IMG/VR virus record: IMGVR_UViG_3300017758_000070 | Coordinates: 1-30,667 of that record | From: a virus | Length of the DNA: 30,667 nucleotides | Reading direction: 5' to 3' (one strand) | Shown here: positions 3,571 to 24,399 of the stretch, piece after piece | How positions within the stretch are numbered: the first letter of the stretch is position 1 | Layout of the letters: the number at the start of each line of letters is the position of its first letter | The notes under the pieces: model-generated | The model's database searches: none | Told to the model about the DNA's origin: nothing | What the model saw: the letters and a program-made list of their open reading frames with translations, nothing else | Program-made: the position numbers and the translations under genes

Positions 3571-4632
3571 TTAACCAAGCGCAATTGCTTGAGAAATAGA
3601 GAACGATTGTGTAGCAAGTGTGCCTGTTATTACAGGTAAAGTTAAAGTTACGTTACCTGAATATGTTGAGTGAGCTGCTGATTTCAATGAAGTATAGTGA
3701 GCATTACTTGACTCACAATAAAATCTTTGTTCGGCAACACTACCTGATCCTGTCTTAATCTCAATTAATCCATCTGTTACAGATACTCCACCACTTGTAC
3801 CATTACCATCTAAATTTACTTTACCTGATCCGTTAGGTAATAATTGAATATTAGCGTTTGATGTTGACACTAAATCATTACCATTAACATCTAAATCACC
3901 ACCCAATTGAGGTGTTGAATCTTCCGTTAAATTTGATATTGCTGAAGATGTAGCAAGACCAGCTACTACAACTGATCTAGCAACTTTTTTAAGTCCCCCA
4001 CCTGAAGTATCAACTGCTAATAAAACGTCATCACTAGCAATTGTATCAATAGCAGATAATTCAGATACAGCTTTTGAACTAAATTTAGAACCATCAGCAA
4101 CTAAAATATTACCACTTGTATTTGTAGTTAAAGTTATGTCGTTAGAATTTACAGTTAAATCACCATCTATTCTAACACTTTCGCCAAAATCTATTATACT
4201 AGAGTCAGCTGAAATAATTTGATTACCTGATATTGTAATACCACCAGATGTTATACTTGTAACACCTGTAATAGTAGCACTTGAAAAATCTACAGCACTA
4301 GCAGGTACTCCAGCAAGTCCTGGACCTAATTGTGATACGTTAATTCTTTTCTCAGTACCGCCATCTGATATTGCTACTTTATCTCCAGCAGCAACTGTAA
4401 TACTAGTACCGTCAGTCATGCCATCTATATTTAAAACAGCCTCTACATTACCAAATTCTAAAGCACTAGCGCCTGAGTTAACTTTTAATACTTGACCAGC
4501 ACTACCGATAGATAGTGAAGCGCCTGTACCACCATGTGTTAATGCGATAAATTCGCCTGATTGATATTCTGCCAAACCTGTGGCATTATTATCATCATCA
4601 AATACGGTTCTTATCGGTGTTTTTACTGACAT
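3571..4632 (-). CDS. Fibre-like virion structural protein with C-terminal QAIALG
   Basis: This 353-residue protein is rich in Ser, Thr, Gly, Val and Asp, with short alternating strands typical of trimeric beta-helical phage fibres (for example repeated ISGNQIISADSSIIDFG-like and LGGDLDVNGNDLVS-like units around residues 130-150 and 240-255). The segment TTNTSGNILVADGSKFSSKAVSEL (about 165-188) resembles the T-N-T-S-G-N-I-L-V-A-D-G unit common in marine phage fibres. The last ten residues (FSISQAIALG) are nearly the same as those of the protein at 9244-9822. The start at 4632 has AAGGAG upstream and its own late promoter box. It is the last gene of fibre cassette 2, next to the neck genes. Receptor binding is inferred. 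Confidence 0.82.
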   Translation of the reverse strand: MSVKTPIRTVFDDDNNATGLAEYQSGEFIALTHGGTGASLSIGSAGQVLKVNSGASALEFGNVEAVLNIDGMTDGTSITVAAGDKVAISDGGTEKRINVSQLGPGLAGVPASAVDFSSATITGVTSITSGGITISGNQIISADSSIIDFGESVRIDGDLTVNSNDITLTTNTSGNILVADGSKFSSKAVSELSAIDTIASDDVLLAVDTSGGGLKKVARSVVVAGLATSSAISNLTEDSTPQLGGDLDVNGNDLVSTSNANIQLLPNGSGKVNLDGNGTSGGVSVTDGLIEIKTGSGSVAEQRFYCESSNAHYTSLKSAAHSTYSGNVTLTLPVITGTLATQSFSISQAIALG

Positions 4633-6375: not shown

Positions 6376-6383
6376 TATTTATA
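6376..6383 (-). promoter_or_regulatory. Late promoter box TATAAATA
   Basis: An exact TATAAATA on the minus strand before the BppU-like gene. The predicted +1 is near 6370, giving a 13-base leader with the Shine-Dalgarno AGGAGAG. The box overlaps the last codons of the upstream 232-residue gene (stop at 6379), a typical compact phage arrangement. Confidence 0.78.
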
Positions 6384-7077
6384 AGAGGTTTTTCTGTATT
6401 TCTCTGTAAACTATTTTATCAGTCCTAGATTTAATAAATCTTTTATATCTGTTATATAATGGCACCCATTTCTCCCAACCACTAGATTTTTCACAAGTAG
6501 ATGACAAAGTATCTAGTTTTTTTGACATATGAAATCTTTTTAAATTAACTCTTTTATCAGTATCAAAAGTAAAATATGCTAATGGATCGCCTTTTTTAAA
6601 TTTTATTTTATCACTATAACAATTAAATTCTAAGTTTATTCTTCTAAACCATTTACTAATATTTAAAGTACCAGGTACTATATTAGCGTATCTAGTATAA
6701 TGACATTGAGAAAAAAAAGGTGATGTTAAAGTCATATTCATATCAAATCTTGTAAAAAAAATATGATATAAACCTAAACAAAAAAGAAAATTATTTTGTA
6801 GAGAAGGTTGATGAGGTGTTTCTGTAGCAATAAAATCTTTTGTTAAAGGTACTATTTGATTATCTTTTATAGAATACTCACAATCAATAGGTGTCTTTAT
6901 AAAGAAAGTATTTTTTAATTTATGTGAAACAGCAGGACATAACAATAAGTTTTGTCTAGGATTTATTTTAGATATGTTTTGATAGTGTGTGTCAAATAGA
7001 TTATATAGATTATCAAATTCAACTTTTTCGTGTAAAGATGACCAATACACATTTACATTTCCAGCAATTTTCATCAT
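6379..7077 (-). CDS. Unrecognised 232-residue protein inside the fibre cluster
   Basis: I do not recognise this gene with confidence. Unlike its Gly/Ser/Thr-rich neighbours it is rich in Phe, Tyr, Lys, Asn and Cys (Cys at 47, 66, 100, 125, 153, 195). It also has several Trp (12, 143, 201, 204) and looks like a compact globular protein rather than a fibre. The best-structured part is about 115-180: TSPFFSQCHYTRYANIVPG, then WFRRINLEFN, then KIKFKKGDPLAYFTFDTD. A strand followed by a (K)KGDPLAYF turn recalls jelly-roll or dUTPase-like cores and DUF6065-type proteins, but that is only a resemblance. There are two possible starts (7077 or 7074) and no clear Shine-Dalgarno. No signal peptide or membrane segment was seen. 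Confidence 0.75.
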   Translation of the reverse strand: MMKIAGNVNVYWSSLHEKVEFDNLYNLFDTHYQNISKINPRQNLLLCPAVSHKLKNTFFIKTPIDCEYSIKDNQIVPLTKDFIATETPHQPSLQNNFLFCLGLYHIFFTRFDMNMTLTSPFFSQCHYTRYANIVPGTLNISKWFRRINLEFNCYSDKIKFKKGDPLAYFTFDTDKRVNLKRFHMSKKLDTLSSTCEKSSGWEKWVPLYNRYKRFIKSRTDKIVYREIQKNLL

Positions 7078-7098: not shown

Positions 7099-8565
7099 TT
7101 AAAATCTAACGTAAACACCACCTGCTTTACCACTACTAGCACCACCGCCGCCTGTACCATCAGCACCATTACCGTTACCGTCAGTACCAGAACCGCCGTT
7201 AGCGTTTACTGGATCGTATCTTTGTTGAGAACCATTTCCTCCTCCACCGAAGAATCCTGATTCACCGAATGTACTAAATTCTGATATTTCTACACCAACA
7301 CCACCATTACAGTTTCCTGGGCAACCATGTGGCTCACTTCCGTTTCCGCCTGAGCCGCCGCCTCCGCCGCCACCCCAAAAGTAGTGACCGTCTCTGTATC
7401 CGCCGCCTCTGTTACCTCCGTGAGAAGTACCTCCGTCAGCAACGTTAGCTTGTGTTGTTGTAAATGGTGTTGATTGACAACCTGATTGTGTACCTTGAGG
7501 ATGAGCACCACCTGTGTTAGCACCACCGTTAGAGTTAGTTTGTCCCCCACCTCTAGCAGTTATATTACTGAATGTTGTATCTCCTCCAGATTGATTACCA
7601 CCACCGCCACCACCGACAGAACCTGGTATTCCTCCAGCAGATAATGGGTGTGAAGCCTTATAAACAAGACCTCCTCCGCCACCACCAGCAGAACCACCTC
7701 CGCCTGCGCCGCCACCGACTACAAGTACCTCGTAGTTACCTGTAAATGGAGCAGTAAATGTAAACGCACCAGCAGCAGTTACAGATGTTACTGAAGGAGC
7801 TTTAACTGTTAGTGAAAATGCTCTTGCTTCTGTTCTTATAGCAGAGTCAGCTGATTGTACAATAGCTGTTACTGTAAAGTTTGATGTAGTATCTGAACCT
7901 ACAGCGTCTGGTGTACCTGATATATCTCCGTTATCATTATTAAATGACATACCTGCTGGTATTGAACCAGAAGTTATATTGTGATAGATAGCAACTGAAT
8001 CGTTTGAGTCAGCACCAGCGTCATAAACACCGCCTGCTGCTCTACCTGAATCGTAAATTGTACCTAATGAACCTGCGTCATTTCTAAAAGTTGGATCTCC
8101 AATACGAGAAATTGTTGTTGTACTTTCAGCGTTTTGACCTGTTGGATTAATAACTTTAACTTTAATAGCTGAAATAGAAGTTGCGATAGGACTTGAAGCA
8201 AAACCTGTTACAGCAGTTAGTTGGGTTGAACTAACTCTACTTACTGTTGGTGAATTACCTAAAGATGAATCGTCTGCGTTGTTTAAGAAAGTGACAGTCG
8301 CACCTGTCATAAAATTTGTACCATTAATAGTAATAGTAGTATCGTTATCTTCGTTATAAGTACCTGATAAAGATGATACTGACGGTGGTAAAGCAATAGT
8401 TTCAAAATCAGAACCGTCTGATTGTTCTAATCTTTTTAATGTTGAATTATATCTTAATAAACCCTCAGCAGCTGATGGTCTTTGAGCAGTTGTACCTGAA
8501 GGCATTACTATACCCGAAGTATCACCACTTAAATCTATACTTGGATTTTTTACTTTTGTTACCAT
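7099..8565 (-). CDS. Tail-fibre adhesin: Ig-like domains plus polyglycine-rich C-terminal domain
   Basis: This 488-residue protein is probably a receptor-binding adhesin. Domain order: an N-terminal fibre segment (1-58, with LLRYNSTLKRLEQSDGS); an IPT/TIG-type Ig domain (about 60-153, TITINGTNFMTGATVTF); a putative-Ig (He_PIG type) domain (about 165-255, with SIPAGMSFNNDNGDISGTPD at 201-220); and a glycine-rich domain (278-488) that opens with the typical YEVLVVGGGAGGGG. Runs of six to eight Gly (about 293-299, 318-323, 398-404) resemble the polyglycine-II bundles of T4-like distal adhesins such as phage S16 gp38. Three Cys sit in the glycine region (363, 415, 419). The glycine codons make this stretch much richer in G+C than the surroundings. 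It lies between a DGST protein and the unrecognised 232-residue gene. Confidence 0.88.
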   Translation of the reverse strand: MVTKVKNPSIDLSGDTSGIVMPSGTTAQRPSAAEGLLRYNSTLKRLEQSDGSDFETIALPPSVSSLSGTYNEDNDTTITINGTNFMTGATVTFLNNADDSSLGNSPTVSRVSSTQLTAVTGFASSPIATSISAIKVKVINPTGQNAESTTTISRIGDPTFRNDAGSLGTIYDSGRAAGGVYDAGADSNDSVAIYHNITSGSIPAGMSFNNDNGDISGTPDAVGSDTTSNFTVTAIVQSADSAIRTEARAFSLTVKAPSVTSVTAAGAFTFTAPFTGNYEVLVVGGGAGGGGSAGGGGGGLVYKASHPLSAGGIPGSVGGGGGGNQSGGDTTFSNITARGGGQTNSNGGANTGGAHPQGTQSGCQSTPFTTTQANVADGGTSHGGNRGGGYRDGHYFWGGGGGGGSGGNGSEPHGCPGNCNGGVGVEISEFSTFGESGFFGGGGNGSQQRYDPVNANGGSGTDGNGNGADGTGGGGASSGKAGGVYVRF

Positions 8566-8581
8566 TTTTTAATCTCTCCCA

Positions 8582-8824
8582 TTATACTGGCATTTCAACG
8601 AGTACAACCACAGATGAAGCGCCTGGAGCGGCGTCAAACTGTAAAGATGTACCACCAATTGAATAGTCATTGTTAGGGTCTTGGTATACACCATCAATAT
8701 AAGCCATAACTTTATTATCAGTTAATGATTCTGTAACTGTAAAGTTAGTCGTAGAACCATCACCAGTGTATGTTCTAACGTTTATATCTGTAGGTCTATG
8801 TATATCATTGATATATCTAACCAT
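8582..8824 (-). CDS. Small DGST-module structural protein
   Basis: This 80-residue protein is a single beta domain. Residues 19-30 read YTGDGSTTNFTV, then MAYIDGVYQDPNNDYSI (about 40-56), then LQFDAAPGASSVVVLVEMPV. The same order (DGST-F, then a strand with V/I-DG/NN-V-Q-P, then a TAxP turn, then a closing strand) recurs at the N-termini of the proteins at 22271-23242 and 20491-20940 and near the C-terminus of the 2092-residue protein. It is therefore a stand-alone copy of a module used throughout this virion. It probably joins fibres or baseplate parts. It lies between the short beta protein and the adhesin. Confidence 0.8.
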   Translation of the reverse strand: MVRYINDIHRPTDINVRTYTGDGSTTNFTVTESLTDNKVMAYIDGVYQDPNNDYSIGGTSLQFDAAPGASSVVVLVEMPV

Positions 8825-8837
8825 TTAATTACCCCTA

Positions 8838-9206
8838 TTATACGTCTTCTAAGACTGAAATTGTTACGTCAATAGCAGACCCTGCTGAAGCTTCAGCTCT
8901 TAATACGTCTGCGTTTGAACCATCATTTTGTACAACTAATTTGTTGCCTTGCATTACCTCTAAAGTCGTTTTCGGTGGTACTTTTACATCTTTAATAATA
9001 TAAACATCATTTGAACCATCTTCATTATCTAAGAAGATACTTGCTGTTCTTTCTGTTGTTGTTTTATTACAGACGTTAATACCAATAATTATAGACTCTA
9101 GGGCACTTGAACCTGCGCCTGCTGGAACAGTGTACACAGCGTCTGCCGAAGCACCTGTACCTGTACCGACACTCGGTTTTGCAAATCTTTTAAAATCGTT
9201 AGCCAT
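8838..9206 (-). CDS. Short beta-rich virion structural protein (paralogue of 23251-23574)
   Basis: This 122-residue protein carries alternating strands: YTVPAGAGSSALESIIIGINVCNKT (26-50), then TASIFLDNEDGSNDVYIIKDVKVPPKTTLEVMQGNKLVVQ, and a final DVTISVLEDV. The layout is mean-valued strand, N-x-T/S loop, IP/VPP turn, LVVQNDG, closing xxVTxxxL. The 107-residue protein at 23251-23574 shares it, and both follow an IALG-type fibre gene. The start has an AAAGGGA Shine-Dalgarno and a late promoter box at 9228-9235. A structural role in the fibre or baseplate is inferred from family context in marine T4-like phages. Confidence 0.8.
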   Translation of the reverse strand: MANDFKRFAKPSVGTGTGASADAVYTVPAGAGSSALESIIIGINVCNKTTTERTASIFLDNEDGSNDVYIIKDVKVPPKTTLEVMQGNKLVVQNDGSNADVLRAEASAGSAIDVTISVLEDV

Positions 9207-9227
9207 TATACTATCCCTTTATTGTTA

Positions 9228-9235
9228 TATTTATA
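9228..9235 (-). promoter_or_regulatory. Late promoter box TATAAATA
   Basis: An exact TATAAATA on the minus strand in the 37-base gap before the gene at 8838-9206. The predicted +1 near 9222 gives a 16-base leader with AAAGGGA. A second exact match at 9300-9307 lies inside the upstream coding region and may be chance. Confidence 0.8.
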
Positions 9236-9243
9236 TACTTTTT

Positions 9244-9822
9244 TTATCCTAATGCTATTGCTTGTGCTATAGCAAATGGTTTTGTTGCCACACTTACACT
9301 ATTTATAGTCACATCCGAACTAGCGGCAAGTGTAGTTCCACTAATTGTTGTACCACTAATTGTAGTGGCACTTGCGATTGCCCCACCAGATGATACAGTT
9401 ACACTATCGTTTAATGTTAAAAGTGAACTATCAGTTGTTCTTATTCTATTTTCAGTTAAAAATAATGTGCCTGCTGTAACAGATGTACTACCTACTAAAG
9501 CAGTTGAAGTCAAACTTGTTAAACCTGTGATTGTTGAATCTAAAGAAGCAGTTAAAGTGTCAGTAGCACTTACAGTCATAGATACACCACCTGAACCTAC
9601 AACGTTTAAAGTATCACCACCTTCAATTGTTTGAGTTGTTGACGAAGCGTCTCTAAGTGTAAACTGTGAAGTACCAGCTTTTGCCTCATTAACAGCGGCA
9701 ACTAATGAAGATTTATCAGTTGTATCTAAATTAGTTAAATCACCTGTATCTGTGGCATGACTATTAAACGTACTTCTCAACGTTTCTATTGTGTCATTTA
9801 CATTTACTACTCTTACAGCCAT
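9244..9822 (-). CDS. Fibre-like virion structural protein with C-terminal QAIALG
   Basis: This 192-residue Ser/Thr-rich protein starts with a possible helical neck (VNVNDTIETLRSTFNSHATDTGDLTNLDT, then LVAAVNEAKAG at about 42-52). It continues with repeated beta units (TAGTLFLTENRIRTTDSSLLTLND; TISGTTISGTTLAAS). It ends in SVATKPFAIAQAIALG, like the end of the protein at 3571-4632 and, more loosely, the one at 23578-24399. Its start overlaps the stop of the coiled-coil gene by one base (TAATG). I infer a short trimeric fibre or a fibre segment. Confidence 0.8.
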   Translation of the reverse strand: MAVRVVNVNDTIETLRSTFNSHATDTGDLTNLDTTDKSSLVAAVNEAKAGTSQFTLRDASSTTQTIEGGDTLNVVGSGGVSMTVSATDTLTASLDSTITGLTSLTSTALVGSTSVTAGTLFLTENRIRTTDSSLLTLNDSVTVSSGGAIASATTISGTTISGTTLAASSDVTINSVSVATKPFAIAQAIALG

Positions 9823-16333: not shown

Positions 16334-17797
16334 CTAAAATTCAATTATCAGTTTAACGTTTTCAGTTTGATCTGAAGCTCTTGTTATTGGTGCTCTATTT
16401 TCTAAATACAATACGTCACCTGTGTCGGCGTCAATTTCAGAACCAGTGTATCCACTTGAAAATGAAATACTATCAACTGTTGAAGAAGCACTTGAAGGTG
16501 TTCCTGTAGCACTTGATGATTGTCCTGTAATTGTATGTGTACTAGAAAATGCTGTTAAATTTCCATTACTATCTGCGCCAGCATCATTATGTCTTGTTTG
16601 TATATAATATAAAATTTTGTTTGATGAATCCCATTCTACAACTTTACCTACAGCGCCTGAAGTGGCTTGATTTATTTCTTCATCAACTGTAAAGTTACCT
16701 GAATTACTAGCAAGTAATATTGCTTTTGTTCCTCTTAATGTTGTAGATGAAGCAGCTGATCCGCCTGATTTAATATCTCTAAGTAAAGCAACTCTTCTAA
16801 AATCTTGTCCTACAACGAAATCACCTGTGTTTGATGATTCAGTACCTTCAAAGTTTGTATTACACATTACAAAAAATCCACCTAATTCTTTTACAGCATT
16901 AAATCCGTGTCCGCCTTTTGGCTCTATAATTACATCTAATTCTGAACCACTTAAACTTGTAGCACCAGCAGATACTATATCAGCATTTCTAATATAACCG
17001 TAAGTATAACCTGTTCCAGGAGTTGTAACTGTTACTGCTGTCACAGCACCACCTGATACTGTTACAGTACAAGCACCAGATGAACCATCACCTCTAATCG
17101 CAACACCTGTGTGTGATCCGTTAGTACCACCTGAACCTGCTGTTTTAATTTTTACTATGTTAACGGCACCATCTACAGCGGCAGATGATACAGTTGAATT
17201 AGTAGCAACTGCCATAAAGTCAGTTGATAAAAAGTTTTGTCTTTGAGCAGCAGATAAAGAATACATATATTTCCATTTGTATCCGTCACCAGTTGTTAAT
17301 ATAGAGTTTGATGTACCACTTGGTTCTACTGTTGAGTTAGCGTCACCATTGTTATCTAAACATTTGTAAACATTGAAGTCAGATGTTAGTACATAAAAAG
17401 TTGCGTCATATAAAGCTGTAGCACCACTGTTTGCTGATTGTGTACTTGAAGTTGATCCTGTTACTAAATGTCCATAATCATGTCTGTAATAATCGTAAAC
17501 TGTGCCAGTTGTCCAGTTTCTTCTAGGTACAGCAAATGATATGTCATTACTTGTAACTTTTTTAGCAGCCATAAAGTCGTCAAAAGAATAAAACTCTTCT
17601 TGTATTGAATCGACAGGTGTAGGTGCTGAAGTATCAGAACCTTCAAATTCTGTTCTACTATCTGGTCTTGTAGAAGTACCAAATGCGTGTGGTCTTCCTA
17701 TAGCTAAATAATACACATTAGCAGATGATTCTGAAAAAGACTCTTGGAACTGCTCTGAGTTGTGTATTCTAAACTTATTTGTTATTATTGCTGGCAT
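16334..17797 (-). CDS. 8: Baseplate wedge subunit, gp8-like (enlarged)
   Basis: This 487-residue protein keeps the landmarks of T4 gp8 (334 residues). They are N-terminal IITNKFRIHNSEQFQESF (T4 VTSKFRTEKMLNFYNSI), VPRRNW at 90-95 (T4 IPRRDW), VYKCLDN with VEPSG and DGYKWKYMYSLS (T4 VYRCLD, DGYVWEYLFEI), and the C-terminus LYLENRAPITRASDQTENVKLIIEF (T4 YMENRPPIIMAMDQTEEINILFTF). The extra length lies in the middle (about 200-460), with Gly/Ser-rich strands including a TVDEEINQATSGAVGKVVEWD unit. T4 gp8 is a wedge protein near gp7 and gp10. The gene follows cassette 1 and precedes DUF4815. The start has AAGGA and a promoter-like GATAAATA upstream. Confidence 0.9.
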   Translation of the reverse strand: MPAIITNKFRIHNSEQFQESFSESSANVYYLAIGRPHAFGTSTRPDSRTEFEGSDTSAPTPVDSIQEEFYSFDDFMAAKKVTSNDISFAVPRRNWTTGTVYDYYRHDYGHLVTGSTSSTQSANSGATALYDATFYVLTSDFNVYKCLDNNGDANSTVEPSGTSNSILTTGDGYKWKYMYSLSAAQRQNFLSTDFMAVATNSTVSSAAVDGAVNIVKIKTAGSGGTNGSHTGVAIRGDGSSGACTVTVSGGAVTAVTVTTPGTGYTYGYIRNADIVSAGATSLSGSELDVIIEPKGGHGFNAVKELGGFFVMCNTNFEGTESSNTGDFVVGQDFRRVALLRDIKSGGSAASSTTLRGTKAILLASNSGNFTVDEEINQATSGAVGKVVEWDSSNKILYYIQTRHNDAGADSNGNLTAFSSTHTITGQSSSATGTPSSASSTVDSISFSSGYTGSEIDADTGDVLYLENRAPITRASDQTENVKLIIEF

Positions 17798-17832: not shown

Positions 17833-18114
17833 TTATGGTTTTGTCGGCCAAGTCACATTTTCACATTTCTCAACCGTGTCTTTTCCACTTGGTAAGTCTC
17901 TTAAATTTTGTCTGTATGTTTTCATATCGTCTGATAAAGTTTGATCTGACAATGCTAAATAATCTGTCTCAGCAAGTAGTCTATTTCTCTTTGTTCTCAA
18001 ACTTAGTATAGCTTCATTAAAAAGTTGAGTATCTGATTTTGTTTGTTCATCTACTTCAGCTTGTGTCATTTCCACTTCGACACCGTTAAGTAATTTAAAT
18101 TTACCTGTGCTCAT
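17833..18114 (-). CDS. Tail-fibre assembly chaperone-like protein
   Basis: This 93-residue protein has the layout of phage tail-assembly chaperones of the Phage_tail_APC type. A short beta N-terminus (FKLLNGVEVEMT) is followed by a helix, then RTKRNRLLAETDYLALSD with MKTYRQNLRDLP (about 40-75), and a WPTKP tail. The R-N/D-x-L-L-x-x-T-D-(W/Y) and YRQ-x-LRDLP motifs are shared with the paralogue at 21310-21627. Such proteins usually act on the fibre encoded just upstream, here the MALT fibre at 18114-18728, with which it shares a TAATG overlap. An SD GGAG precedes the start. Confidence 0.82.
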   Translation of the reverse strand: MSTGKFKLLNGVEVEMTQAEVDEQTKSDTQLFNEAILSLRTKRNRLLAETDYLALSDQTLSDDMKTYRQNLRDLPSGKDTVEKCENVTWPTKP

Positions 18115-18728
18115 TAATATTTAACTCCATATACTGTTACAACTCCGCCAGCTTCAAAATTACCACCACTATTACCAAACATTTTAAATTTACTAAATGC
18201 TGTACCAGCAAGAGAAGTATCTTCAACAGCTGTAAAACCTAATCTATCTCCACCACTTCTTTGAAATCCTTGATAGAAAAAATACAATGCTCTTTGAGCA
18301 GCTTCTATATCATCATTAGGTGCTGGCCAAATCCACATTGTACCACTAAAAGAGTTACCCATACCATCAGGACCTCTACTTGAATTAGCAGCAGAGTGAT
18401 CTGTTCGACTATTGTCTTCAACAACTGCTGAATTATAGTCTGTATCTGTTAAATAACCACCTGAAGTTCCAACTTGCATATTAAGATTTTGTGAAGAGGC
18501 AAAAACTAAATTTTGCATTGAAACCATATATCCTCTATATGTTGTCGTATCTAATCCAGTGAACTCAATTGTTGATGTAGAAGCAGTTGTTGTAGCAGTT
18601 GATAGTTTGACTAAATCATTATATGTTGATGTAATACTGGCAGCCGTTGTAACAGCAGTACCTCCATTAGCAACAGGTAGTGTACCTGAAACTGCTGGAC
18701 TAGTTAAACTTATTCTTGTTAATGCCAT
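18114..18728 (-). CDS. Tail-fibre protein, MALTRISL type
   Basis: This 204-residue protein starts MALTRISLTSPAVSGTLPVANGGTAV, a fibre attachment or neck segment frequent in marine phages. It then forms a beta-rich domain (FTGLDTTTYRGYMVSMQNLVFAS at about 57-79; ending KFKMFGNSGGNFEAGGVVTVYGVKY). The C-terminal x-YGVKY resembles the end of the relative at 21620-22261 (LWGYYDG). Both are followed directly by a chaperone-like gene. It probably forms a short receptor-binding fibre that its downstream neighbour helps to fold. A good Shine-Dalgarno (AGGAG) precedes the start. Confidence 0.8.
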   Translation of the reverse strand: MALTRISLTSPAVSGTLPVANGGTAVTTAASITSTYNDLVKLSTATTTASTSTIEFTGLDTTTYRGYMVSMQNLVFASSQNLNMQVGTSGGYLTDTDYNSAVVEDNSRTDHSAANSSRGPDGMGNSFSGTMWIWPAPNDDIEAAQRALYFFYQGFQRSGGDRLGFTAVEDTSLAGTAFSKFKMFGNSGGNFEAGGVVTVYGVKY

Positions 18729-18729
18729 A

Positions 18730-19299
18730 TTAAGCTCCTATTACCCTAAATCCTTCAAAAATTGATCTGTAAATTCCATCTGTTATTGTACTTGTTCCTT
18801 TAATTGAGGGAGTGCTACTTGTGTCATCTACTTGTAAATAAACTTCAATATAATCATTTGCAACTAAAGGTAAAGTTATAGCAGCTTGAACTGTAAATTG
18901 ATGTCCTGGATTATCTCTAAAATCAAAAATAGCATAATCTATTCTTGCCCCATTTTTATAAAACATTAATTCACCAGTATTATAATTAGCATTACCAGCA
19001 CAACTAGAATACATTTTAGTATGTAAAAAATATTTTCCATCCTTACCGCTCGGTACAGTAAATTTATCAGAAGCAAAAGCACTATCAGTATCATAAAATT
19101 CTGCGTTCCAAGTTACTTTAGTATTTACGTTATCAGATAAACTTTGATCGGATGATTTATAAACACTAAAAGCAGGAGTGTTAGAAAGGAAACCTGTTGC
19201 CATAGCACTACCTGGTGTAAATGTACCACTACCGTTTGAAGATACAATAGAATTTCCGCCTGCGTCTTGTATTGTATTTACTTTTAAAACACTACTCAT
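18730..19299 (-). CDS. C1q-like fibre protein (block B, third copy)
   Basis: This 189-residue protein has a short N-terminal attachment segment (SSVLKVNTIQDAGGNSIVSSNGSG) typical of marine phage fibres, then a C1q/TNF-like jelly-roll from about residue 42. Its landmarks are PAFSVYKSSDQ, then WNAEFYDTDSAFASDKFTVPSGKDGKYFLHTKM, then ELMFYKNGARI, then LPLVANDYIEVYLQVDD, and a closing FEGFRVIGA. C1q-like domains form trimers and are used as receptor-binding tips. The start has GGAGG upstream. It is one of three adjacent C1q-like genes plus a fourth, fused copy at 22271-23242. Confidence 0.85.
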   Translation of the reverse strand: MSSVLKVNTIQDAGGNSIVSSNGSGTFTPGSAMATGFLSNTPAFSVYKSSDQSLSDNVNTKVTWNAEFYDTDSAFASDKFTVPSGKDGKYFLHTKMYSSCAGNANYNTGELMFYKNGARIDYAIFDFRDNPGHQFTVQAAITLPLVANDYIEVYLQVDDTSSTPSIKGTSTITDGIYRSIFEGFRVIGA

Positions 19300-19302
19300 T
19301 TA

Positions 19303-19932
19303 TTAATATCCTCCGTATCCTGAACTAGCACCTGAATCACTACCACTAACTCCGCCAGTATTTGTTGATGAAACTGAGGATCCTATTCTCATACCCCAAA
19401 AAGTATTACCGTATTCTGTTCGCCAATCTCTACTACTTCCATGATTATGTTTAATGTAAACTTCAAAATAATCATCTACATCAACATCAACAATTGTGGT
19501 AAGATTAGCTTGATGTGGAGTTGTGCCAGAACTTTCTGTAATCATATTTAAACCTTGAGCATTTGTACCTACCTCAGAACCATTTTTATATATACTTACT
19601 CTTATATAAGCTTGGTCTGCTATATTATCAATAGTTATACCTGTGCCCATTTGATATAGTCCTGCTACTGTAGCAGTAAATCTATAATTTGTAGTAATAT
19701 CAAAATTAGTATTAGTATCCCAATACTTGGCATTAAATTGTGCTTTTGTAAAACTATTATTTCCTATAGATTGATAACCACCATTATTATAATCTCTATA
19801 CACACAAAAAGTAGGTGCCATATGACCTGTCATTGTGCCTTTTGCTGTTAACTGTACATTTGCTGGTATAATAACCGAACCTGCGCCTGTTGTTGTCGTT
19901 AATGTTCCAGCTTTTATTGTTCCACCTGCCAT
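19303..19932 (-). CDS. C1q-like fibre protein (block B, second copy)
   Basis: This 209-residue protein begins with GTIKAGTLTTTTGAGSVIIPANVQLTAKGTM and continues into a C1q-like jelly-roll. Landmarks are APTFCVYRDYN, FNAKYWDTNTNFDITTNYRFTATVAGLYQMGTGI, then VSIYKNGSEVG, then VDVDVDDYFEVYIKHNH, and WGMRIGSS. The tail is a Ser/Gly/Tyr-rich linker ending GYGGY, which is not present in the neighbours. The Shine-Dalgarno is AGGAG. Probable trimeric tip or fibre domain. Sequence divergence from its neighbours suggests an old duplication or independent acquisition. Confidence 0.83.
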   Translation of the reverse strand: MAGGTIKAGTLTTTTGAGSVIIPANVQLTAKGTMTGHMAPTFCVYRDYNNGGYQSIGNNSFTKAQFNAKYWDTNTNFDITTNYRFTATVAGLYQMGTGITIDNIADQAYIRVSIYKNGSEVGTNAQGLNMITESSGTTPHQANLTTIVDVDVDDYFEVYIKHNHGSSRDWRTEYGNTFWGMRIGSSVSSTNTGGVSGSDSGASSGYGGY

Positions 19933-19934
19933 CT

Positions 19935-20489
19935 TTAAACTCCTATCATCCTATACATACCAAATATGCTTTCATCTGTTCTAACTTCTATTGTTCCAGA
20001 ATCTACATCTCCTCTGCCATAAATTTCAATATAATCTCCAGCAGATAATACTATTGAAGTTGATAGATTAAGTCCATAATATCTACCATTACCATCATTG
20101 TTGGTATTAGTAAGCGCTCTAGTAGTGGTTTTTGAACCATTTTTGTAAACATATGCTTGGCATTGAGCAAGACCAGAATTAGCACTACTACCTACTGTAA
20201 GGTTACAATAAAGATGATATTTTCCTCCTAAACCTGACGGTACTGTAAATCTTTTAGCACTTACATCATAAGCACTATTGGTATCAAAAACTTCGCTATC
20301 AAAATTAATTAATGTATCTGTTCCGCCACTAGGATTTTGCTCTGTTGTAATTCTTGCTTCAAAAGCAGGAACCATTGATATAGCACCAGATATAGTAGCT
20401 CCTGTTGGAACTGTAACTGTATCAGTAGCAGAGCCAACTGTAAGTGTTGATCCTACTGGTTCGATTGTATTTACTGTTATTGAACTCAT
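19935..20489 (-). CDS. C1q-like fibre protein (block B, first copy)
   Basis: This 184-residue protein starts SSITVNTIEPVGSTLTVGSATDTVTVPTGATI, a beta-helical attachment segment, and continues with a C1q-like domain from about residue 40. Landmarks are PAFEARITTEQ, then INFDSEVFDTNSAYDVSAKRFTVPSGLGGKYHLYCNL, then AYVYKNGSKTT, then SAGDYIEIYGRGDVD, and IFGMYRMIGV. It follows the MSYIG protein after one base, which itself lacks a C1q domain. The Shine-Dalgarno is weak, so coupling to the upstream gene is likely. Confidence 0.84.
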   Translation of the reverse strand: MSSITVNTIEPVGSTLTVGSATDTVTVPTGATISGAISMVPAFEARITTEQNPSGGTDTLINFDSEVFDTNSAYDVSAKRFTVPSGLGGKYHLYCNLTVGSSANSGLAQCQAYVYKNGSKTTTRALTNTNNDGNGRYYGLNLSTSIVLSAGDYIEIYGRGDVDSGTIEVRTDESIFGMYRMIGV

Positions 20490-20490
20490 A

Positions 20491-20940
20491 TTAAACTATT
20501 GTTACCGTTGAGCCCGAAGGCACTGTTATTGTTCCACTGACTGTTATAGGACCAGCCAATAAAGCATTTTCTGAACTTGATATAGAAATACTTGTTAATG
20601 TCTGATTGTTTTTATGATACCATGACGAAGCTAATTTAGCAGTCGTAATAGTAGCATCCGAAGGTGTACCTATATCTAATACGTTTCCGTAAACGATACC
20701 GTAAAAAGAATCCGTACTTTCAGGAGCACCTGTAAATGTAATTGTTGAACCAGATACAGTATAAGCGCTGTTGGGTTCCTGAACTACGCCAGAAATTGTA
20801 ACCAACATGTTTTGCTCATTCAGAGGAATTACACTTTCGCCGCCAGATTGCATTGTAAATGCCTGAGTTGATCCGTCAAAAGACAAATCATCTAACTTTG
20901 TAAAGTTTCCTATTACTGGTTGTTTTCCTATATAAGACAT
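20491..20940 (-). CDS. MSYIG/DGST fibre-attachment protein (unfused form)
   Basis: This 149-residue protein carries the N-terminal MSYIG motif followed by a DGST module: LSFDGSTQAFTM (about 19-30), MLVTISGVVQEPNSAYTVSGSTITFTGAPESTDSFYGIVYG (about 45-85). It then has ATITTAKLASS and a Ser/Thr/Val-rich beta C-terminus (GPITVSGTITVPSGSTVTIV). The first 110 residues correspond to the start of the protein at 22271-23242, which continues into a C1q domain; here the C1q domains are on separate genes downstream. Its role is probably attachment to the baseplate or a fibre base. A variant late box lies just upstream. Confidence 0.82.
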   Translation of the reverse strand: MSYIGKQPVIGNFTKLDDLSFDGSTQAFTMQSGGESVIPLNEQNMLVTISGVVQEPNSAYTVSGSTITFTGAPESTDSFYGIVYGNVLDIGTPSDATITTAKLASSWYHKNNQTLTSISISSSENALLAGPITVSGTITVPSGSTVTIV

Positions 20941-21309: not shown

Positions 21310-21627
21310 TTATCCTTTTGTAGGTAAATTTAGATTACTTAAATTTTCTTCTAAAGTTTTACCGTCAGTTGTTGTGTAATTACTAGGCAAATCTCTTAAT
21401 GCCTGTCTGTAATCTTTTAAATTTTGTTGTACACCTGTACCTCTGTCAGCTGCCTTTATTATTTCCCAATCAGTTTCTTTTAATAACTGATCTCTTTTTA
21501 CTCTTATATTTGCCATTGTTCTATCGTTCTTGCCGTTAGCCCAAGCAGTCTCTTCAGCGTCTCTAGCAGCTTCTTCCTGTGCTGTGTAAGCAATTTTTAC
21601 ACCATCTACTATTTTAAATCTAGCCAT
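21310..21627 (-). CDS. Tail-fibre assembly chaperone-like protein
   Basis: I place the start at the ATG at 21625-21627 (MARFKIVDGVKIAYT), giving 105 residues. It has a GGGGG Shine-Dalgarno about 8 bases upstream and only an 8-base overlap with the preceding gene; the longer reading frame would overlap by 65 bases with an uninformative N-terminus. It shares with 17833-18114 the R-D-Q-LL-x-ETDW motif (about 45-55), the YRQALRDLP motif, and a short C-terminal LPTKG tail (WPTKP in the relative). It follows the MALS fibre at 21620-22261, whose folding it probably assists. Confidence 0.82.
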   Translation of the reverse strand: MARFKIVDGVKIAYTAQEEAARDAEETAWANGKNDRTMANIRVKRDQLLKETDWEIIKAADRGTGVQQNLKDYRQALRDLPSNYTTTDGKTLEENLSNLNLPTKG

Positions 21628-22261
21628 CGTAGTACCCCCATAAAGTATAAAAGTAATCTTCAAAATTTCCAGTGTTAGGAGCAATACTAATCTTATTCAT
21701 TTTTAAAACATAAGTTGCCTCTAAACTAGCACTACCTCTAATTTCTCTAAAATTGTTACTACCATCAAATCTACAACCTTCCCAAGTCCAATTGTTTGAT
21801 TGTTTAACACTTGACTCAGTGTCAATAGGTCTTAAACGCATAATAACATTCCAACTTTCAGCGTTATCAGTATTATTACCAGCGTCTTTTGACATTTCTA
21901 CCGAAGTAGCACCATTAGAATAAATTACGTCATGTGCTGTGCCATCAGCATAAATGTGTTGATAACCATACTTATAGTTATTACTTGAATTATGAAAACT
22001 TGAACCATCTGTTGAAACAGTACAAGTTAAGTGTGCGTTATCTGTTTCAGGTTTAGCACTAAATTCTAATAAAAAAGATTTATATGTTTCAGGTAAAGTT
22101 ATTTGAATAGAACCTATTCCAGATTGAGCAGTAGCAGAAGCAGTAGCAATTTTTCTAAGGTTACCTATATCAGAGGCAGACGTTACCGTTGTACCACCTA
22201 ATGTAACTGGTAGAGCATTTTCTACTGCGTTTCCTGATAAACTAATTTTACTTAATGCCAT
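21620..22261 (-). CDS. Tail-fibre protein, MALSKISL type
   Basis: This 213-residue protein starts MALSKISLSGNAVENALPVTLGGTTV, parallel to MALTRISLTSPAVSGTLPVANGGTAV in 18114-18728. The remainder is a beta-rich globular domain (LPETYKSFLLEFSAKPETDNAHLTC at about 56-80; ending FEDYFYTLWGYYDG). The two proteins differ strongly after the first 35 residues, as expected when the receptor-binding part diverges faster than the attachment part. Its stop overlaps the start of its chaperone-like neighbour. The Shine-Dalgarno is AGGAAT. Confidence 0.8.
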   Translation of the reverse strand: MALSKISLSGNAVENALPVTLGGTTVTSASDIGNLRKIATASATAQSGIGSIQITLPETYKSFLLEFSAKPETDNAHLTCTVSTDGSSFHNSSNNYKYGYQHIYADGTAHDVIYSNGATSVEMSKDAGNNTDNAESWNVIMRLRPIDTESSVKQSNNWTWEGCRFDGSNNFREIRGSASLEATYVLKMNKISIAPNTGNFEDYFYTLWGYYDG

Positions 22262-22270
22262 TTTTTATTC

Positions 22271-23242
22271 CTATACGTTTAATTTGTACCCACTAAATTG
22301 TGATGTTGTTATTCTGCCAGTTCCTGTTGAAAAATCTATTTTTATATATGCTTCAACATAATCATCAGTATCTAAATCAACTATAATTGAAGTTGATTGC
22401 ATCATTAACTCTAATTCTTGTTCTGCTTTGTGTGTATTAGTTGTATAGTCAATAGCTGAACCATTTTTATAGATAGCTATTGCCAATGAAGTTATTGATG
22501 AAGCACTTGATGTTCCACCAGTAGCATTTACTTCAATATAATATTTTCCTGATACTGTTGGAGTAAATCTATCAGAAGCAAATTTTCCATCACTATCTAA
22601 ATTTTCTGTATCATAAGTAATTTTTGTCCAAGTATTGTCTGATTGACCAGTTGTTTGACCTGATTTAGAAGCAGAAAAAGCTGGAGCATTTATTTTATCA
22701 AACTTCATAGTACCTGTTGCTGTTGTACCTGAACCTGAAATTGAATCAACTGCCAAAACTGTGCCAGCTGCCACATTATTTTCTGGAAAAATTAATGTAT
22801 AAGATTGTGATACAGCATGAGGTGGCGATTCTAATTTTATACCATGACTATTAGCAGAGCAGTTTAGCTGAATTTGACCAGCTTGTGAACCACTACCTTG
22901 TGATGTTACACCTGCTGTAGATGTATCTGTAATAAAGTTTGTTTTTGCTTTTGTAACTGAACCGTCAGGTGTATTAATTGTACCTACTGTAAATCCTAAG
23001 TAATAACAATACATAGTATCGCCTGAAGCAGGTGCCGCTGACATTAATAAAGTATTAGCAGAAGCAGTATAAGCTTTGCCAGAACCAGGTTCTTGTATAA
23101 CGTTATTAACTACAACCAATAAATCTTTTTCGTTTGTAACTGAATGATCTAAAGAAAAAGACGTAGTTGATCCGTCAGGTGTAAACGACTGACTTTGTTT
23201 TTGTAAAAACGTTGTAGCAGGTATTTGTCCTATGTAACTCAT
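22271..23242 (-). CDS. Fused MSYIG/DGST plus C1q-like fibre protein
   Basis: This 323-residue protein has an MSYIG N-terminus and DGST module (SFTPDGSTTSFSL at about 20-32; LLVVVNNVIQEPGSGKAYT at about 41-59; AAPASGDTMYCYYLG). A linker follows (VTKAKTNFITDTSTAGVTSQGSGSQ), then a beta segment (LIFPENNVAAGTVLAVDS). From about residue 188 it has a C1q-like domain with APAFSASKSGQTT, ITYDTENLDSDGKFASDRFTPTVSGKYYIEVNA, IAIYKNGSAID, LDTDDYVEAYIKIDF and SGYKLNV. It unites in one chain what block B has on separate genes. The start has AAGGA upstream. Confidence 0.85.
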   Translation of the reverse strand: MSYIGQIPATTFLQKQSQSFTPDGSTTSFSLDHSVTNEKDLLVVVNNVIQEPGSGKAYTASANTLLMSAAPASGDTMYCYYLGFTVGTINTPDGSVTKAKTNFITDTSTAGVTSQGSGSQAGQIQLNCSANSHGIKLESPPHAVSQSYTLIFPENNVAAGTVLAVDSISGSGTTATGTMKFDKINAPAFSASKSGQTTGQSDNTWTKITYDTENLDSDGKFASDRFTPTVSGKYYIEVNATGGTSSASSITSLAIAIYKNGSAIDYTTNTHKAEQELELMMQSTSIIVDLDTDDYVEAYIKIDFSTGTGRITTSQFSGYKLNV

Positions 23243-23250
23243 TTATATCC

Positions 23251-23574
23251 TTAACTTACATCTGTTAATAATTGTAAAGCGACTGTTACTAATCCACTAG
23301 CATTATCCGATTGTACTTGTACTTTATCGTTTGTTTGAAGTACGATTTTCGGTATTTTGAAAGCAGATCCTACAACTAGTGGAGCATTTTCCACTATTGT
23401 AAAAGTTGTACTTGTCGTAGCGTCCATCTTAGCAATTTTTATGTTCACAGACGTTGTGCTTGAAGTATTAGCAACTGTTCCAGCAATCACTAAAGACTTC
23501 GCTGTAGCAGTAAAAACATCTGTCAACGAATTGCTTGTAATCGCTGATGAAGTATCTGAAAAGTTATTAGCCAT
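23251..23574 (-). CDS. Short beta-rich virion structural protein (paralogue of 8838-9206)
   Basis: This 107-residue protein has strand-rich composition: TDVFTATAKSLVIAGTVANTSSTTSVNIKIAKMD (about 18-51), then FKIPKIVLQTNDKVQVQSDNASGLVTVALQLLTDVS. It shares layout with the 122-residue protein at 8838-9206 (same MAN start, N-x-(T/S) loop, IP/VPP turn, N-D-x-V/L strand and xxVTxxLxxDV end). Both follow an IALG fibre gene. It has an AGGAG Shine-Dalgarno. Structural role inferred. Confidence 0.78.
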   Translation of the reverse strand: MANNFSDTSSAITSNSLTDVFTATAKSLVIAGTVANTSSTTSVNIKIAKMDATTSTTFTIVENAPLVVGSAFKIPKIVLQTNDKVQVQSDNASGLVTVALQLLTDVS

Positions 23575-23577
23575 TTA

Positions 23578-24399
23578 TTATTCTCCTCCTAAAGCAATTG
23601 CAAATGCTAATCCAGCAGCATTTAATTGATCTTGTATTGATGAGGTTACCCCACTTAGATAACCTAATTCTGTTGTTGTTACGGAAGTTACGGATACATC
23701 TCCGTTTGAATCTGAAGCTAATGCTCTACTAGCAGTCAAATTTTCCATTTTACTAAACGCAATGGCAGCAGCTGCCTTAATATCTGCGTTTTCAATATTT
23801 GTTATACTGTTACCTGTACCGTCAGCATCAAAAGTTTTATTTGTAAATGTAGTTGTACTGGCACCTGTAACACTTGAAACTTGTGTGGCAATATATGCCT
23901 TAATAGATTGTTGAGAAGCAGCAGCAGTTGCTGAATCTGAAGCAAAGTTATCTTCATCTAAAAAGCCTGTACCACTTAACGCACCATTTAAAACTGGTGC
24001 TGTTAATGTTTTATTTGTTAATGTTTGTGAACCTGTTAATGTAGCAATTGTGGCGTCAACAGCAATAGATAATCTATCTGTATTAACACCTGTTGTTGTA
24101 ATACCTGTACCACCTGCCACAGTTAATGTATTACCAGAAACTATTGATTGATTATCACCACCGTCACCTGCGATTGTGAAACCACCTGCGTCTCCTGGCT
24201 CAAATAAACCATTAGATGAATTATAAATTAAAGTTTGACCGTTAGTTACACCTGATATTGTAAATGCGACAGTAGAACCATCACCTAAAGCACTGTAAAT
24301 TTCGTTAAAGTTTTCGTTGATTAGATCACCACCAGCACGAAGCGTAGTACCCGTTCCGTCATTGGCAGTTGTTCCTATCTGAATTACTTGTCTACCCAT
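23578..24399 (-). CDS. Fibre-like virion structural protein with C-terminal FAIALG
   Basis: This 273-residue protein begins GRQVIQIGTTANDGTGTTLRAGGDLINENFNEIYSALGDG (about 2-42), which is a common N-terminus of marine T4-like fibre proteins. It continues with repeated beta units (GSQTLTNKTLTAPVLNG around 125-142; TTFTNKTFDADGTGNSITNIENADIKAAAAIAFSKM). LGYLSGVTSSIQDQLNAA (about 248-265), a motif frequent near the ends of phage fibre shafts, follows, and the protein ends LAFAIALGGE. The tail resembles the QAIALG ends at 3571-4632 and 9244-9822. Its start overlaps the stop of the tiny upstream gene. Confidence 0.83.
   Translation of the reverse strand: MGRQVIQIGTTANDGTGTTLRAGGDLINENFNEIYSALGDGSTVAFTISGVTNGQTLIYNSSNGLFEPGDAGGFTIAGDGGDNQSIVSGNTLTVAGGTGITTTGVNTDRLSIAVDATIATLTGSQTLTNKTLTAPVLNGALSGTGFLDEDNFASDSATAAASQQSIKAYIATQVSSVTGASTTTFTNKTFDADGTGNSITNIENADIKAAAAIAFSKMENLTASRALASDSNGDVSVTSVTTTELGYLSGVTSSIQDQLNAAGLAFAIALGGE

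Follow-up and report, generated by a model that had tools for sequence, protein, structure and literature searches.

Among described receptor-binding systems, the closest to the locus analysed here are the tailspikes of the Ackermannviridae, such as those of CBA120 and S117, in which one gene cluster encodes several receptor-binding proteins with constant N-terminal assembly domains and variable C-termini. In the available text of the respective reports, these tailspikes form branched complexes and most Limestonevirus phages have a TSP4 that lacks a receptor-binding domain (PMC11414711), receptor-binding modules are swapped between the tailspikes of Kuttervirus, 91-100% identical ones standing on different TSP types with a conserved motif at the junction (PMC8432352), and XD2, a jelly roll, serves as a trimer-docking module in the tailspike complex of CBA120 (PMC8825819). 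For pelagiphages, the C1q proteins beside the tail fibre have been described as hypervariable and putatively receptor-binding (Mizuno et al. 2014, PMC3909814), and XkdW and tail fibre assembly genes stand in the same table of metaviromic island genes. Distant and morphologically different Alteromonas phages share host recognition genes (PMC10579305, available part), broad shuffling of fragments has been reported in receptor-binding proteins (PMC10684548, available part), and the Melnitz and Skadi papers present variable tail genes, though, in the text available, not the arrangement described below (PMC9004378, PMC10504331).

The cassette that lies between a connector gene and gp8 in our window probably encodes, on balance, a receptor-binding complex of several parts, in which the attachment ends are constant and the tips can be exchanged. 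It resembles the Ackermannviridae clusters in having conserved N-terminal ends and variable C-terminal parts in one gene cluster, and in carrying one receptor-binding module on different protein types (28 non-redundant pairs). Unlike the beta-helix tailspikes, its tips are small C1q-like jelly rolls, together with other families, the tip that was modelled being C1q-like; also unlike them, its adaptors are 30-40 aa long, and it is common to T4-like and T7-like marine phages. Judged from the sequences, the cassette would thus work like an Ackermannviridae tailspike set, and membership is not claimed; its tips are of another kind. The published pelagiphage islands are presented, in the available part of PMC3909814, without a rule linking stubs to adaptors, an exchange of tips between adaptors, or a C-terminal plug, and the Alteromonas module, as far as its available description goes, consists of a fibre and its chaperone (PMC10579305), whereas the present cassette is a multi-adaptor set. 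Our search of the openly accessible literature returned no report of the stub-adaptor rule, of an AIALG-like C-terminal peptide, or of C1q tips common to fused and separate bases in these phages.

Gene layout and the two-domain protein

The window, that is, the whole stretch of DNA analysed, is a virus record of 30,667 bases with all its main genes on the minus strand (Table 1). Its gp8-like protein shares 73% identity with the one of Pelagibacter phage Mosig and 53% with the HTVC008M protein, for which reason the virus is regarded as pelagimyophage-like. Reading downstream, the genes follow each other as connector, S107, fused DGST-C1q, MALSKI, Tfa-like, XkdW-like, DGST stub, A, B, C, D, second Tfa-like and gp8, the stub gene beginning 1.3 kb after the fused gene ends. 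Since HTVC008M has no genes between the preceding structural gene and gp8, and Mosig has three, the site before gp8 is variable; it differs from the site between VrlC and gp14 at which the host recognition cluster of pelagimyophages has been described (PMC7029224, available part). Comparable gene orders with a fused or long DGST gene are found in other kinds of Pelagibacter and Methylophilales phages, namely HTVC019P (Autographiviridae), HTVC115P, HTVC026P, HTVC100P, HTVC203P, HTVC106P, HTVC035P, Lederberg and Melnitz-2 (Kyanoviridae). Several pelagiphage records label S107 proteins 'virion structural protein'. Near cassettes the XkdW-like gene is very frequent, with 555 relatives among 599 candidate stretches.

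Table 1. Positions in the window of the cassette genes, their parts and the bordering genes
Feature	Positions	Strand	Evidence
T4 gp9/gp10-N-like connector, 273 aa, C-terminus ...LAFAIALGGE	23578..24399	-	Pfam PF07880 (T4 gp9/gp10 N-terminal), 35.6 bits, cut-off 25; PHROG 677, E 1e-19
AIALGGE peptide at connector C-terminus, putative plug	23581..23601	-	motif counts upstream of S107
S107, protein of ~107 aa, putative socket or hub	23251..23574	-	aligned with 13 homologues
DGST1-C1q, fused base and tip, 323 aa	22271..23242	-	Pfam, window search, model
DGST part of DGST1-C1q, residues 1-85	22988..23242	-	confident beta domain in model; 44% to 20491-20940
Linker of DGST1-C1q, residues 86-182	22697..22987	-	mostly low confidence, block pLDDT 41-67
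C1q tip of DGST1-C1q, residues 183-323	22274..22696	-	Pfam C1q; Z 16.5 to Caprin-2 C1q
MALSKI... protein, 213 aa, D-like N-terminus	21620..22261	-	position and N-terminus
Tfa-like (tail fibre assembly) protein; true start probably within listed ORF	21310..21684	-	PHROG 4912, E 6e-15
XkdW-like protein, 108 aa	20968..21294	-	Pfam PF09636, 24.6 bits (at cut-off); PHROG 9114, E 7e-23
DGST2 stub: DGST domain and C-terminal cap, tipless, 149 aa	20491..20940	-	PHROG 18673 tail fiber, E 9e-43; model
DGST2 C-terminal cap	20494..20631	-	conserved among stubs, always terminal
A protein: adaptor (residues 1-40) and C1q tip	19935..20489	-	window search, profiles
B protein: adaptor (1-37) and C1q tip	19303..19932	-	window search, contig comparison
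C protein: adaptor (1-40) and C1q tip	18730..19299	-	window search, contig comparison
D protein: MALTRI adaptor (1-30) and tip	18114..18728	-	profiles, contig comparison
Second Tfa-like protein	17833..18114	-	PHROG 4912, E 2e-16
gp8-like baseplate wedge protein, downstream cassette boundary	16334..17797	-	PHROG 438, E 3e-142; 73% to Mosig

The first-pass annotation had described the protein at 22271-23242 as a DGST domain joined to a C1q-like domain, and this holds: Pfam C1q (PF00386) matches residues 188-319 with 31.6 bits, above the cut-off of 23.7, and a search of the window with the protein aligned residues 1-101 with the stub (44%, E 2e-10) and the C-terminal half with the C (34%, E 1e-16), A (34%, E 1e-11) and B proteins (31%, E 2e-8), so that the homology of both halves to separate genes is well above chance. 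That the DGST protein (20491-20940) and the C1q proteins (18730-20489) are encoded separately nearby was likewise confirmed by the minus-strand ORFs. The same search returned a third DGST-like ORF of 80 aa at 8582-8824. The three single C1q proteins fall short of the Pfam C1q cut-off (18.3 bits for A, no match for B and C). For the T7 gp17 N-terminal domain (PF03906), neither the fused protein nor the stub gave a match up to E 1, and the ORF at 8582-8824 stays below the cut-off (18.3 against 25.2 bits); the tandem DGST protein of Melnitz-2 passes it with 26.6 bits, unlike the DGST proteins of the window. The separate genes are not the fused protein cut in two, since every single C1q protein opens with a conserved segment of 30-40 aa of its own, the adaptor, and the stub has its own C-terminal cap; the fused protein represents one form, among several, in which a modular receptor-binding kit occurs.

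The monomer model of the fused protein, built on an alignment of 45 sequences (mean pLDDT 76.4, pTM 0.50), contains two well-predicted domains, at about residues 11-85 and 183-323, separated by about 97 mostly low-confidence residues, and gives no confident relative placement of the DGST and C1q domains. The C1q part (residues 182-323) has a jelly-roll fold with Z of 14-16.5 to solved chains of the C1q family, the best being the C1q domain of Caprin-2, and is also matched by the CBD of the A-1(L) short tail fibre (8ke9_A, Z 15.0). A tail protein of cyanophage A4 (9k09_A) spans both domains (202 residues, Z 15.7), with its domains placed differently from those of our model, as the rmsd of 14.3 indicates; the identity of these two chains to the fused protein is low (17-18%), and our literature search did not turn up a publication on the A4 structure.

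The stub model (mean pLDDT 80.8) aligns over residues 8-85 with XD2, one of the gp10-like docking domains (XD2/XD3), of CBA120 TSP4 (7rfv, residues 187-250; Z 8.8, 1.8 A, 64 residues, 22% identity), with the N-terminus of T7 gp17 (Z 8.0-8.2) and with several phage neck and baseplate proteins, the cap being barely covered by these structure searches. From the models, DGST is plausibly a docking domain, but a Z near 8 may reflect a common arrangement only and is by itself no proof. A DGST-like stretch is also present in gp28 of P-SCSP1u (residues 570-674, E 1e-15), for which the available structure report resolves the fibres at their N-termini only (PMC10575957) and therefore gives no placement of DGST.

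Stubs, adaptors and the exchange of tips

Profiles for the DGST domain, the cap, the adaptors and the tips served to type the genes of the window and of 277 loci, for the most part metagenomic contigs. The loci came from five contig scans, all anchored on cassette genes; among these anchors only XkdW favours neither stub nor long DGST, and the genes that seeded the adaptor profiles had mostly been seen after stubs. When the count took in DGST genes followed by two or more complete genes of at least 125 aa, identical cases once, a capped stub was followed first by an A-type gene in 123/124 cases and a DGST gene without cap in 2/103. For the 80 loci retrieved by way of the XkdW gene, the corresponding counts were 40/41 and 0/24, and with one representative per 70% DGST cluster they were 5/5 against 0/9 in the XkdW set and 21/21 against 1/42 over all loci. 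Throughout the typed loci the cap is protein-terminal and never has a tip after it, while the C-termini of the 103 cap-less DGST proteins were typed as C1q (40), T3 (15) and T2 (3), with 45 left untyped. Both forms occur in the same places: directly after S107 there are 62 long DGST genes and 40 stubs, directly after the XkdW-like gene 11 and 38, and elsewhere 61 and 49.

Because of the stub-A rule, and because long and stub DGST use one slot, the tip seems to be supplied either in cis or in trans: going by the gene sequences, DGST carries its own C-terminal part, or it is a tipless stub, behind which an A-type protein and other adaptor-tip proteins are encoded. Gene content thus gives good support to a functional link of the tipless DGST protein with the separately encoded tip proteins. 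A side observation concerns 27 loci (L062, L058, L068, L151 and others) that have two stub cassettes; in 26 of these loci the cap type of the first stub was the same, and the second stub always had a different one.

Sequence comparison shows that the attachment ends (DGST and the adaptors A to D) are kept while their C1q tips are replaced, also across bases. Between the window and contig L002, identity is 99% for S107, DGST2 and gp8 and 91% for the B tip, whereas base and tip identities diverge in DGST1 (90 and 38%), A (82 and 36%), C (82 and 35%) and D (93 and 23%); the D tip of the window served as one seed of the T3 tip family, and in L002 the D protein bears another tip, of C1q-like type. 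Same-adaptor pairs over all loci, in which related contigs are counted many times, combined bases at least 85% identical with tips below 50% in 537/549 cases for A, 267/276 for B, 375/390 for C and 59/63 for DGST.

Tips on different bases can be far more alike. A strict count over classified bases outside the window record yielded 28 non-redundant tip pairs at least 70% identical on different adaptors (first 35 aa at most 45% identical), and 17 of the 23 disjoint pairs on different adaptors reached at least 85%. The best pair joins the C tip of L008 and the A tip of L246 (98.0% at the amino acid and 98.4% at the DNA level). Four of the 28 link a DGST-borne tip with an A, B or C tip; a DGST-fused tip of L008 is 89.9% identical to a B tip of L153, and one of L069 90.7% to a C tip of L268. 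An isolate genome is included in just one of the 28 pairs, so that the others could be assembly chimaeras. A looser count with unclassified and redundant genes gave 124 tip pairs at least 60% identical, and closely similar tips were found on DGST, A, B, C and D bases. An NTPAF-like motif stands at the start of the tip in 78/121 C, 89/181 A, 39/76 B, 33/57 DGST, 9/31 D and 17/56 unclassified proteins; this junction motif may help recombination, yet it belongs to the tip family itself.

Concerted switching of all tips in a cassette, suggested by HTVC115P (mostly C1q) and Lederberg (another family throughout), was considered and set aside, since 77/122 stub cassettes had uniform tips against 74.5 expected by shuffling. 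As a separate observation, the B tip is kept in the closest relatives of the window (L002, as above, and L004, 97%), in contrast to the tips of A, C and D, and may have a different role; the B protein ends in a Gly/Ser-rich tail.

How the separate proteins might be joined

In the reading that we prefer, the stub would be a hub that holds the A-D proteins by their N-terminal adaptors, its cap possibly stacking with the similar-looking adaptor repeats, and several C1q tips would be displayed on it at once. The fused 22271-23242 protein would be a one-piece form of the same arrangement, placed in the first slot. By a further step, the whole set might be joined to the tail via S107, which would dock on the connector's short C-terminal peptide.

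The pairing of adaptor and stub is favoured by the distances among 128 cassettes, in which the stub cap follows the A adaptor (r 0.54) and not the A tip (r 0.02). As judged from these sequences, adaptor and stub are therefore more likely to be the binding partners than C1q and DGST. The cap is not singled out in this respect, the partial correlations with the A adaptor being 0.21 for the cap and 0.15 for the DGST domain, and both the stub-adaptor association and the correlated distances could stem from block inheritance, all the genes being linked. A subtype-specific lock and key between cap and A adaptor was not upheld: average linkage shows some preferences, but several caps or adaptors are shared, and single-linkage clustering, which merged all 128 A adaptors into one group, was uninformative for such subtypes.

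It is rather unlikely, though with an appreciable share of the probability, that each C1q protein joins the tail as an independent fibre by its own adaptor, never touching the stub, and that the genes merely travel together as an operon. Every C1q protein does have its own N-terminal adaptor, and the nearly equal tracking of the DGST domain and the cap by adaptor distances is what plain co-inheritance would produce. Against this, a cap-less DGST gene is rarely followed by an A gene even though it shares with stubs the slot after S107, which simple linkage to a DGST gene leaves unexplained.

The first-pass annotation had argued from the fusion that the separate proteins should bind each other, the tipless DGST holding the C1q domains directly, in the manner of the fused chain, and one base having three alternative tips. 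The functional link that this presupposes stands (123/124 against 2/103, and a shared slot), and it agrees with the homology of both halves and with tips supplied in cis or in trans; the direct contact between C1q and DGST that the fusion implies is improbable. A linker of about 97 mostly low-confidence residues separates the two domains of the fused chain, DGST is fused to several tip families, tips swap among five base types, and tips do not co-vary with the stub (r 0.02). With its pTM of 0.50 and long linker, the monomer model approaches the case of two domains far apart without an interface, but strictly it leaves their relative position without a confident assignment. The idea of three alternative tips also fits poorly, since A, B and C have distinct adaptors that mostly follow recurring orders after stubs (ABCD in 38/124 and ACCD in 13/124); given this mostly fixed order, they are probably parts used together. 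That the stub is a decayed or intermediate form which lost its tip and has no hub role would be compatible with the one slot used by stub and long DGST, but is very improbable given a mean column identity of 52% over the length of 56 stubs, a cap that is always terminal, and the spread of stubs over 21 DGST clusters at 70%.

S107 and the C-terminal peptide of upstream proteins

An AIALG-like C-terminus was found in 119/128 genes directly upstream of S107 (at least 90 aa, deduplicated), against 15/2332 other genes, five of which have S107 two genes further on; as the motif was picked with these proteins in view and the S107 set came from iterated profile searches, these counts describe the present data set and are no independent test. 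The proteins upstream of S107 differ widely at their N-termini, being gp9-like, T7-fibre-like or of other kinds, and that of HTVC019P is T7-fibre-like (PF03906, 107.9 bits). Judging by sequence, the peptide shared by these unrelated proteins is possibly a common plug. A second case is present in the window, where the protein at 9244-9822 ends in KPFAIAQAIALG directly before the gene at 8838-9206, which matches PHROG families 1276 and 26609, like the S107 proteins of other phages. The sequence search with S107 gave only a chance-level match (E 0.6).

SAR11 phages are among the commonest viruses of the sea and must keep pace with diverse hosts. Constant ends with freely traded tips would account for a recognition that is renewed while the tail itself need not be rebuilt; the cassette is apparently portable between T4-like and T7-like tails. 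A wider reading is a plug-and-socket system common to unrelated marine phage tails, in which the fibre or connector of each tail would end in an AIALG-type plug for S107, DGST hubs would sit on S107, and tipless hubs would carry ordered adaptors that show several exchangeable C1q tips at once; it is possible, and we put it forward tentatively; if true, any plug-bearing tail could adopt a ready-made and continually reshuffled recognition kit. The stub-adaptor rule and the C-terminal peptide could also help annotators to find receptor-binding genes that are now listed as hypothetical.

Some minor features of the window may be added. The protein at 3571-4632 ends in SISQAIALG and has no adjoining S107 gene, and a 232 aa protein is encoded between fibre genes at 6379-7077. 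A second small cassette at 7099-9822 comprises the plug-ended protein at 9244-9822, the S107-like protein at 8838-9206, the DGST-only protein of 80 aa at 8582-8824, and, at 7099-8565, a glycine-rich protein with He_PIG and Gly_rich_2 domains; a similar order is found in Melnitz-2.
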